The notes beneath the pieces were generated by a model. The model was not told the origin of the DNA. It searched no databases and saw only the letters and a program-made list of their open reading frames with translations. From Candidatus Gastranaerophilales bacterium (GTDB taxonomy: Bacteria; Cyanobacteriota; Vampirovibrionia; Gastranaerophilales; Gastranaerophilaceae): 64,000 bases of DNA. The translations under genes were made by a program, and so were the position numbers. The first letter of the stretch is position 1. The number at the start of each line of letters is the position of its first letter. The stretch lies in NCBI GenBank assembly GCA_944323145.1, contig CALURJ010000001.1, positions 1-64,000 of the forward strand, written 5' to 3'. Of this stretch, positions 5,072-54,753 are shown one piece after another.

Positions 5072-5908
5072 TTACGGTAGGCATTCAAAATATGTTTTGT
5101 TGTCATCATACGGGCATTTATTCATAAGCGCATAATAAGAACATCCTATACCGTTAGCTTTCTGGCTAGAGTTTAGATTGCATGGATTACCTGCTCTATC
5201 GTCATAGTTCCCTGCTTCAATTTCTTCATCTGTGTAATTTTTTGGTTCTGAATAGGATGTAACCATATCCTTTTGTTTATCCAATTTAAAAAAGAAAATG
5301 TCATGTCCCAGTCTGTTCGGTTTTTGGGCTCCGTTAGTATCAATGACTATGTTTAGTGAGGCCTCAATTATAGAGAATCCTATATAACTACCGTCAGGTA
5401 AAACATTTGTATAATATAGAGCATTCCCGAGCCCGGAGAGTGATGAAGTTGTTATATCGGCTTTGTTATTATAAGTCCGAATTGTTTCATTCAGTCTTAC
5501 AATATGAGTGTCAGTATTATTATATATACTTTTTACACCATCTATATTAAGAAGTGTTTTGTGTAAAATTTCATAGCATTCAGGGGCATTATCATAAGGC
5601 TTTCCGCTGTTACCCGCGTACGGGTAATATGTGCAGTATTGAGCAAAGTTATCAAGTCCAAAATCCGTTTTTGCTTTTAGAAATACCTGCTGTGTAACTG
5701 AAAGAGTTTTTTTAAATTGACTTTCAAGAGCTTTATGTTGAAATTTTGCAACAACACTCGGGATTGTAATTGCCGCAACAACTCCGATAATTCCGAGAGT
5801 GATAAGTACTTCTGCAAGTGTAAAAGCAAATAATTCCTTAGAAAACCTTGTTATAGTTAACTTTTCGGGGGGGGGGAAGGCAATTCTCAGCTTCTTACCT
5901 TTTTCCAT
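5072..5908 (-). CDS. Type IV pilin-like prepilin with a C10 tract in its leader
   Basis: A 278-residue pseudopilin/major-pilin-like protein. Prepilin peptidase should cut at A28|F29 before FTLAEVLITLGIIGVVAA, with Glu5 of the mature protein (E33) present. The C-terminal part is a Cys-containing globular domain (CNLNSSQKANGIGC). The ATG is well supported: AGGAG lies 7 bases upstream. The leader is unusually long (28 residues) and its middle is encoded by ten consecutive C residues (FPPP, residues 11-14). Gain or loss of one base would shift the frame before the cleavage site, so expression could switch on and off. Pilus type (type IV pilus or type II secretion) cannot be told. Confidence 0.85.
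   Translation of the reverse strand: MEKGKKLRIAFPPPEKLTITRFSKELFAFTLAEVLITLGIIGVVAAITIPSVVAKFQHKALESQFKKTLSVTQQVFLKAKTDFGLDNFAQYCTYYPYAGNSGKPYDNAPECYEILHKTLLNIDGVKSIYNNTDTHIVRLNETIRTYNNKADITTSSLSGLGNALYYTNVLPDGSYIGFSIIEASLNIVIDTNGAQKPNRLGHDIFFFKLDKQKDMVTSYSEPKNYTDEEIEAGNYDDRAGNPCNLNSSQKANGIGCSYYALMNKCPYDDNKTYFECLP
5867..5876 (-). repeat. Homopolymer tract of 10 G (10 C on the coding strand)
   Basis: Ten uninterrupted G residues on the plus strand, inside codons 11-14 of the minus-strand prepilin gene. The AT-rich flanks on the coding strand (ATTGCC before, GAAAA after) resemble those of the tract at 33062-33071. A candidate slippage site. Confidence 0.9.
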
Positions 5909-5973
5909 AATAAAACTCCTCTTATATATAACAATCTATTCAATTATTTATCATTTTTCAAATTTTGTCAAGA

Positions 5974-31884: not shown

Positions 31885-33564
31885 TTATTTTATACCAAAT
31901 ATGTAAATTTCCCAATTCTTATTTACAATTTTTTGTTTCAGTTTATAGTTTTTGCTGAAAACTTTAACCATATCATTATACAGTTTTGATAATCGTAGAA
32001 ACTGGAACGGGTATTTATCGAAATTTTCTGATTGTACTGCCGTTGTTAACTGGCTATCTGTAAATATTGCAATACTTCTGTCTTTTATTAAAACAATATT
32101 GCTATTGGTTGAAAAGTTTTTGAGTACATAATTTTCAAAGTCTTCAGAAATATTTTCCTGCATCAAAAAACGTTTGATGTATTTGTTTTTGTTGTTTTTA
32201 TCAGTATTAATTCCATTGATTTCGTCTTCAGTTAAGTATGTTTTTTGGGCTTCAGGCGCCGTAAGCTTATAAATGCTGTATTTTTCTCCGTCAATGTAAA
32301 AATATTTGTCAAGAAGATCAACTCTGATTGGCATTATATAGTTGTATTCATGCGAAATTCCGGCTTTAGCCAAGGTGTCTGCAAGTACTTTATAGCCGTC
32401 GGGTCTTTTAATATGGGGCGCACCTGAAATTGATATTATCCCGATTATATTTATTATTACAAACAGGGGAATAATAATTTTATTTTTAATTTGTGCAATT
32501 CCCGCGGAAGATACAAGCAGTAAAAGCGGAAGAATTGGAAGTGTGTATCTGACAAGGACATTATACCCTGTAGTAAAGGTAAAAATTATGTGCAGGGCTG
32601 TGTAACAGAATACAGTTAGGAATAAATATAGTGAAACTTTTGTTTTATCTGATTTTATACCTTTAATTATTCCGTATATGATAAAAGCTGCGGGGAATAT
32701 CACAAATATCCATAATTTAATGCTTAAAATATGTGATATTAAATATAAATGATAGTTTAAAATATTATTTTGCAGTCCGTTAAGCAATGGTGTAAACCAG
32801 TTTTGTACGGCAAGCAGAATAAATGAATTGTCATAAACTACAGCATCAAAGTTGCCTGAAACATAATTCTTAAAAAATAAACTTGCAATAAGCGGGATAA
32901 GAAAACTTAAAGAGTATATTAACATCTCTTTGTAATTACATATTTTCTTTATAACAAGGTAGATTAGGGCTGCTGCAAATAGTAAGACTGCAAGAAGAAT
33001 TTGTGAAGTGTAAGCAGAGATTAATATAAAATTCAAGCCTGTCAATATCAGGAGATTTTTCGGGGGGGGGGCAATACTGCTTGACTTGTCAAAAATAAAT
33101 TTAAGCCAGTACAATAAAATCAGGTTTATAATAAAGAAAGTTAAAGAATAAAATTTTGCCTCCTGTGCATAGTAAATAAAAGAAGAGTTTACTGCATAAA
33201 GAAGCATATAAATTAATCCTGTTTTATCATGTTTAATATCAAGATTTTTCCCGAGCTGTCTGCCCGTAAAATAAGCCGTAATAATTGCAAGTATGTCAAA
33301 AAATACAGACATCAGCCTTATAATTAAATCTGAATTGCCTAAAATATTTATCCATAGATTGTATATAATGTAATAAAGCGGGAACAAAAGGAAGCGGTGG
33401 CTGTCTGCATTGTACATCCCGCTTAAACCGTGCTGTGAAGCAATAGAATATATCGTTGCTTCGTCATACCAGAGTCCTCCTGACTTATCAAGATTTATAA
33501 GTCTGAAAAGTATTCCTGCAGCTAATATAAGTCCGAACATTATATAATTTTTTGTTTTGTCCAT
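31885..33564 (-). CDS. Membrane glycosyltransferase, GT39/GT83 (PMT/ArnT-like), with an internal C10 tract
   Basis: A 559-residue polytopic protein. The N-terminal loop RLINLDKSGGLWYDEATIYS carries the acidic catalytic-type Asp-Glu of the GT-C fold, and about ten membrane segments follow, with a soluble C-terminal part. Such enzymes move a sugar from a polyprenyl-phosphate donor to lipid or protein on the outer face. GGGGA precedes the ATG. Residues about 165-168 (APPP) come from ten consecutive C. The paralog at 42209-43855 aligns through this loop but lacks about six residues here, so the Pro-run is an insertion. Slippage would truncate the protein after about 170 residues. Confidence 0.85.
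   Translation of the reverse strand: MDKTKNYIMFGLILAAGILFRLINLDKSGGLWYDEATIYSIASQHGLSGMYNADSHRFLLFPLYYIIYNLWINILGNSDLIIRLMSVFFDILAIITAYFTGRQLGKNLDIKHDKTGLIYMLLYAVNSSFIYYAQEAKFYSLTFFIINLILLYWLKFIFDKSSSIAPPPKNLLILTGLNFILISAYTSQILLAVLLFAAALIYLVIKKICNYKEMLIYSLSFLIPLIASLFFKNYVSGNFDAVVYDNSFILLAVQNWFTPLLNGLQNNILNYHLYLISHILSIKLWIFVIFPAAFIIYGIIKGIKSDKTKVSLYLFLTVFCYTALHIIFTFTTGYNVLVRYTLPILPLLLLVSSAGIAQIKNKIIIPLFVIINIIGIISISGAPHIKRPDGYKVLADTLAKAGISHEYNYIMPIRVDLLDKYFYIDGEKYSIYKLTAPEAQKTYLTEDEINGINTDKNNKNKYIKRFLMQENISEDFENYVLKNFSTNSNIVLIKDRSIAIFTDSQLTTAVQSENFDKYPFQFLRLSKLYNDMVKVFSKNYKLKQKIVNKNWEIYIFGIK
33062..33071 (-). repeat. Homopolymer tract of 10 G (10 C on the coding strand)
   Basis: Lies in the third exposed loop of the glycosyltransferase gene. 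Coding-strand flanks are ATTG before and GAAAAA after, matching the tract in the prepilin leader (5867-5876) apart from a short TT interruption. Confidence 0.9.
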
Positions 33565-53935: not shown

Positions 53936-53999
53936 AAAAAATTTTTAACATATTTTTTACATTAATGCAAAGAATTAACAAATATGTTAAAAGTCGGGA

Positions 54000-54010
54000 G
54001 GGGGGGGGGG
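54000..54010 (+). repeat. Homopolymer tract of 11 G upstream of a prepilin gene
   Basis: Eleven G residues, 28 bases before the -35 box of the prepilin gene. It is in an open frame that runs into the prepilin from an ATG at 53965, which lacks a ribosome binding site. Either promoter strength or a long-leader form could change with tract length. Confidence 0.85.
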
Positions 54011-54038
54011 CTCATGACTTTGCACCTGAATTTTGGGC

Positions 54039-54066
54039 TTGCAAAAGAAATATAAAATGCTATAAT
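54039..54066 (+). promoter_or_regulatory. Extended -10 promoter of the prepilin gene
   Basis: TTGCAA (54039-54044), 16-bp spacer ending in TGC, TATAAT (54061-54066). The box ends 7 bases before the ATG at 54073; no ribosome binding site, so the transcript may be leaderless. Confidence 0.6.
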
Positions 54067-54072
54067 AGTGAT

Positions 54073-54753
54073 ATGGTATATCATAAAAAATTTGCATTTA
54101 CTTTAGCAGAGGTCTTAATAACTCTTGGTATAATCGGTGTTGTTGCTGCGATAACTATACCTAATCTGGTCTCCAAATATCAAATGAAAGTTTTTGAAAC
54201 AGGTTTTAAGAAGCAGTATGCAGCAGTGCAATCGGCAATTGATTTACAATTTTTGAATAATGGTTTAGTTGATTGTTATATGTATTATGATAGAACAAGT
54301 GATTTGTATAGATCTGTTTTATCACAATGTTCTCAGTTGAATTCCGAAATAAGAAATTATATGAATTTATTTAAAATTGATGATGATATAAGAAATAATT
54401 ATGCTAAAAAGGCAGAAGTTCAGGCAAATGGCGGTAAATTTGTAAATTCATCTGTTAGTTATGATACTTATATAAACGCTGGTATTGCGTATGCTTCACA
54501 AAACGGCGCAACTTTCTTATTTTCTGATAAGTTCCCTATTTTAATTATAGATGTAAACGGTGAAAAGGGACCAAATAAATGGGGTTATGATGTTTTCTTG
54601 CTGGTATATTCAAATCATGACGGAAATTTAAACAGAATTCTTTTAACTGATGAATTTGCATCTATAGTAGAAAAAGGTGGGCGACTGCCAAGGACTATTT
54701 TGACTAATAAAGAAAAAACTGAGAACAGTGATTTTTCCTGGTTTTGGAAGTAG
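54073..54753 (+). CDS. Type IV pilin-like prepilin
   Basis: A 226-residue prepilin. Short leader VYHKKFA, cleavage before FTLAEVLITLGIIGVVAA, Glu5 present, then FKKQYAAVQSAIDLQ and a C-terminal DVNGEKGPNKWGYDVFLL block shared with the other prepilin and the pilin-like protein at 29285. I prefer the ATG at 54073 because the promoter -10 box would leave the ATG at 53965 outside the mRNA, and the short leader is typical. An 11-G tract lies upstream. The gene stands alone, divergent from the mannosidase gene. Confidence 0.85.
   Translation: MVYHKKFAFTLAEVLITLGIIGVVAAITIPNLVSKYQMKVFETGFKKQYAAVQSAIDLQFLNNGLVDCYMYYDRTSDLYRSVLSQCSQLNSEIRNYMNLFKIDDDIRNNYAKKAEVQANGGKFVNSSVSYDTYINAGIAYASQNGATFLFSDKFPILIIDVNGEKGPNKWGYDVFLLVYSNHDGNLNRILLTDEFASIVEKGGRLPRTILTNKEKTENSDFSWFWK

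Follow-up and report, generated by a model that had tools for sequence, protein, structure and literature searches.

Does the run of ten C residues near the 5' end of a prepilin gene act as a phase switch and, if so, does it act alone? The gene lies near the beginning of the window (the whole stretch of 64,000 nucleotides analysed here), which belongs to a Candidatus Gastranaerophilales genome of 1.885 Mb in 35 contigs (G000). Its parts are as follows.

5072..5908, minus strand: prepilin ORF of 278 aa, in frame at C10, with a 28-residue leader and then FTLAEVLITLG
5916..5922, minus strand: Shine-Dalgarno sequence (SD), AGAGGAG
5906-5908, minus strand: start codon ATG
5867..5876, minus strand: C10 tract (codons 11-14)
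5810..5824, minus strand: FTLAE prepilin-peptidase motif (codons 29-33)

The tract reads as G10 on the plus strand and C10 on the coding strand, where it occupies nucleotides 33-42 of the ORF; strand, codons and placement between SD/ATG and FTLAE are all as the initial annotation had them. The ORF has the hallmarks of a type IV prepilin, a prepilin-peptidase/N-methylation motif and a hydrophobic stretch (FTLAEVLITLGIIGVVAAITIP), and its family matches are weak (PF07963, E=0.11, below the cut-off; NCBIfam pilins also below cut-off). That a slip of one base would abolish the pilin is borne out by translation: C10 gives 278 aa, C9 gives 16 aa and C11 gives 23 aa. The repeat thus lies inside the reading frame, and a change of one unit toggles the full-length product, as at known phase-variable loci. 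The closest paralogue within the genome is ON at C11. In place of the usual G before the run, the window gene has GCCTT-C10.

Such runs are far more frequent than chance allows. The initial annotation counted three runs of at least 10 in the window (beginning at 5867, 33062 and 54000) and put the expectation below 0.01 per window; the count is correct, and the bound holds, with about 0.002 exact-10 runs expected per 64 kb. Two of the runs are of 10 and one is of 11, with zero of 7-9. The second and third are these.

33062..33071, minus strand: second element, a canonically flanked C10 run (ATTG-C10-GAAA) that lies in frame within a glycosyltransferase-like membrane protein
31885..33564, minus strand: that membrane protein, 559 aa, intact at C10, resembling ArnT/PMT-type glycosyltransferases by inspection
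54000..54010, plus strand: third run, G11, with an atypical flank on one side (on the C strand, C11 then T)
53965..54753, plus strand: prepilin ORF open through the G11 run, with a possible second start (MVYHKKFAFTLAEV) downstream at 54073

No Pfam match was found for the 559-aa protein. Its orthologues in G011 and G024 are without the tract, so the run in the window was gained locally; in the G024 orthologue (L166), a TAG lies in frame upstream of the place that corresponds to the tract. The third gene exceeds the PF07963 cut-off as a prepilin (53965..54753, or from the start at 54073). At 54010-54080 of the window, as at L111:8432 and L191:4253, leaders of the CYNSD..HH kind encode at the DNA level a TATAATAGTGAT box, which in several leaders precedes an SD and own start (MKRAFTLSEV), and which is possibly, to judge from its sequence, an internal promoter and operator.

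Beyond the window, G000 contains 43 runs of at least 10 (about 45 elements), three of 9 and two of 8, where independence predicts about 0.016 exact-10 runs per 449 kb. Runs of at least 10 are present in 31 of the 33 genomes of the genus. The congener G026 has 176, nearly all of exactly 10; the lengths of its G/C runs in 400 kb are seven of 6, none of 7-9, 45 of 10 and one of 11. G000 and other genomes also have runs of 9, 11 and more. When named genomes were scanned for the motif described below, almost all of the matches listed were Candidatus Gastranaerophilales MAGs; within the family it occurs also in genera g38, g3 and a few others, and in most others not at all. A scan of IMG/VR gave 0 matches.

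The element is not distributed independently of gene type. About three quarters of the runs follow the SD and ATG of prepilin genes, typically by 21-36 nt, in both gene orientations, start codons being assigned by inspection. Prepilin runs are mostly on the G-rich strand (G-type leaders, ...GGG...), and the remainder have C-type leaders (K-LRIAPPPE). Among the other runs examined, the hosts are mostly glycosyltransferase-like, radical-SAM, acyltransferase-like and methyltransferase-like genes (named by inspection), and these are in frame at their present length. Prepilins usually are not. At a tract of exactly 10, 169 of 183 prepilin sites (92%) need +1 to come into frame, 11 (including the window's, a minority type that is ON at 10) are in frame, and 3 need -1, in a set that was partly selected for length 10 and whose paralogues are not independent. 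A protein-based search with no selection for length found nearly all tract-bearing homologues to be also of 10 and OFF. With 10 bases, most prepilins soon run into a stop downstream of the tract, and with 11 they are back in frame. The common need for +1 partly reflects shared ancestry of paralogues. An SD and own start follow the tract in 18 of 215 prepilins, so the tract need not control these 18. Some leaders have peculiarities of their own. In three (L007:12744, L014:3406 and L006:3324), a second FTLAE sequence, FTLAEGATRVA..PN..QR.AAFTLAEVLITLG, lies upstream of the cleavage motif as a repeated decoy, and in G000 others run to about 140 codons (L018, L011, L016 and others), open in the pilin frame, with the repeat-like sequences PSLIREGK and EVKRSGRQA.

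The runs are embedded in a motif. Written on the C strand, the consensus is roughly AGCYTARARYYG-C10-GAMA, with the same flanks for genes of either direction; the signal is at the level of DNA and not of coding. At all 16 non-prepilin sites in G026, in unrelated genes, a pyrimidine and G precede the run and G and a purine follow it (YG...GR). On the G strand, C stands before 45 of 46 G026 runs and after 46 of 46; for runs of 3-5, by comparison, the neighbours are C in only about a quarter to two fifths of cases. YG-C10-GA occurs 22 to 59 times per genome in six genomes of the focal genus, and once in G002; its mirror image occurs zero times in all seven focal-genus genomes scanned. Prepilin runs in G002 are 12-16 long with different flanks, AAT-Cn-GATG (L119, L122 and L124), and are, by sequence, a divergent form of the element.

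They are also polar. Among the first 100 G026 runs listed, all 45 on contig C1, all 19 on C2 and all 11 on C4 lie on one strand, and those on C3 are 17 and then 7, with a single strand switch between 123 and 163 kb. Genomes G025, G031 and G004 show the same one-strand pattern, with single switches, and in G000 the strand of motif-bearing runs is uniform within each contig. When GC3 skew was given its sign by the strand of the tract, it came out positive in 20 of 21 G000 stretches and 18 of 19 G026 stretches, which places the G run on the G-rich strand. That strand is conventionally taken as the leading one; from the skew, we infer that the G run lies on the leading strand. No polarity was found for runs of 1-6. 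A single run (G034 C5:20127, in another genus) breaks the rule. A G13 run in G000 (L031:3254, contig C21) lies on the strand opposite to its contig's, is without the motif and adjoins TTGACA; on these features it is likely a separate promoter-spacer tract.

Tract length differs between some similar loci. A C10 locus in G015 (OFF) and its C11 counterpart in G000 (ON), which is the closest paralogue of the window gene, match at 80 of 80 flanking positions and differ by 2 substitutions over the part of the 5' region compared, so that, at least here, length changes faster than sequence. The same holds for two further pairs, C10/C12 and C10/C11, in G021 and G034. Beside these three pairs that differ, all of them elsewhere than the window tract, there are about 90 similar pairs of a single length, in part because length 10 was a basis on which loci were chosen. 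Single colonies of Campylobacter are spread over G8-G12 at polyG tracts (PMC4965091); the G026 distribution (45 of 10, one of 11) is sharper than this, and points to a length attractor at 10. Length 10 is far sharper in G026 than free slippage would be expected to give, and this, together with the presence of MutL, counts against the slippage switch favoured below. Sequencing truncation of longer runs was rejected, since within the same assembly other genes (e.g. a GT2 gene, L071, with a PGGG motif) need exactly 10 bases for their frame and have them. Loss of mismatch repair was rejected too, since MutL is present. Contig breaks at tracts, considered as a sign of length mixtures, were set aside as confounded: in the pair looked at closely (G021 C71/C72), leader repeats are common to both.

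What, then, became of the phase switch proposed for the window gene? A switch in tract length is still the best reading, inasmuch as C10 and C11 loci with identical flanks toggle the frame; the tract does not stand alone, though, but belongs to a dispersed, strand-polar, flank-defined element. On balance, we lean towards this element being a replication-polar slippage site that acts as a reading-frame switch, with OFF the resting state for most prepilins. The excess of runs, their polarity, the motif, the 169 of 183 sites at +1 and the natural C10/C11 pair all point this way. Replication slippage would turn 10 into 11, or back, in rare cells, so that, out of a large repertoire, each cell would express only a few prepilins, and not always the same ones. 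Tract-bearing surface-modification genes would normally be ON, and now and then OFF, and the window prepilin would be a variant that is ON at 10. Slippage alone leaves the conserved flanks and the polarity unexplained. For these, the simplest guess would be that a process coupled to replication acts on the G run when it is in the template of the lagging strand. A more specific version, to which we give limited credence, is that a dedicated process of this kind recognizes YG-C10-GA on one strand, brings the run back to exactly 10 and adds a single base at a fixed rate, leading to stochastic, few-of-many expression of more than 100 prepilins per genome.

The shared need for +1 in 169 of 183 length-10 prepilins, the sharp length and the early 0-frame stop after the tract would also be expected of obligate recoding, in which -1 slippage of the ribosome on G10/C10 (or a base added there by RNA polymerase) allows a low level of prepilin to be made with no change to the DNA. 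We consider this improbable. Recoding predicts neither strand polarity nor flanks that are kept irrespective of gene direction. The slippery run lacks the RNA structure of a programmed -1 frameshift site: 198 leaders showed no excess of structure downstream of the tract (mean z -0.16 and -0.29). Moreover, the element is in frame in other genes, the two members of a G004/G026 pair, 96% identical, call for different shifts, and runs of 9, 11 and more occur in G000 and others.

Joining of DNA at the tract is also improbable, and ranks next. Here, the G run would be a recombination site at which a module of SD, ATG and tract is swapped between prepilin bodies. Two G026 loci, L110 and L111, have one and the same sequence from SD to tract but diverge immediately beyond; similarity between prepilin loci is highest at the tract; and a patch of about 400 nt around it is 92-100% identical between G000 and G015, where sequences further out are 58-76% identical. 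However, examples are few, conserved promoters and leaders could yield the same pattern, and tracts occur also in unrelated genes. Recombination at the tract is compatible with switching, and the two may coexist.

Like KOPS and Chi, the element is polar along the replichores, and its near-complete agreement with GC3 skew would suit a chromosome-scale motif that merely happens to fall in these genes; but such a motif would not need the position, in prepilin starts, that about three quarters of the copies occupy, and the element is absent from many sister genera, making this very unlikely. Least probable of all is a functionless by-product of G-run growth on the leading strand, for while the GnT to Gn+1 hotspot has a leading-strand bias that fits the strand (PMC12344412), and the base after the run is C, never T, in G026, the inferred leading strand shows no depletion of G3T-G6T, runs of 4-6 lack polarity, and such growth would not put runs downstream of the start codons of prepilins. 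As the sole cause, hotspot growth was rejected, short runs giving it no support, as was templated rewriting by a reverse transcriptase (DGR- or retron-like), no RVT_1 being found in the tract-rich genomes G007, G024 and G025.

If the reading of a slippage-driven frame switch is true, the bank of switchable pilin genes in gut Gastranaerophilales is, to our knowledge, among the largest. Metagenome reads that already exist could then show length states directly, to the single base, and strict replication-strand polarity with a fixed length of 10 would offer a handle on the control of slippage that ordinary polyG tracts do not expose. In the open-access literature, we found no described phase variation tied to Gastranaerophilales, and what the sequences present has the look of a large set of pilin switches, in gut bacteria not yet cultured, that had not been described before.

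Known systems resemble it in part. Chi and KOPS share its near-complete strand polarity, but the copies here are few and concentrated in prepilin leaders. Programmed -1 frameshifting and transcriptional slippage (PMC5009743, PMC1088944) likewise involve a homopolymer, an early stop and a product in the -1 frame; here, in contrast, there is replication polarity, flanks are kept in both gene directions, and downstream structure is missing. Neisseria pilE/pilS, with the pilE G4 (PMC3547852), also combines a G-rich element near pilin genes with a large pilin repertoire, and there, too, orientation matters. The present element, however, is a single uninterrupted G10 run and not four G runs; tract-bearing copies each come with an SD and a start codon, in place of silent copies without start, and no single expression locus was found; and frame, not gene conversion, separates the states of many complete genes. 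Closest are the polyG/polyC contingency loci of Campylobacter and Neisseria, in which, as here, a G/C run of about 8-12 lies near the 5' end of genes for surface structures, one base toggles the frame, and glycosyltransferases are among the targets. The Gastranaerophilales element differs from these in being a single motif whose flanks are conserved, which keeps to one replication strand and whose run is usually 10 long, present in up to 176 copies, mostly in prepilins and mostly OFF at 10.
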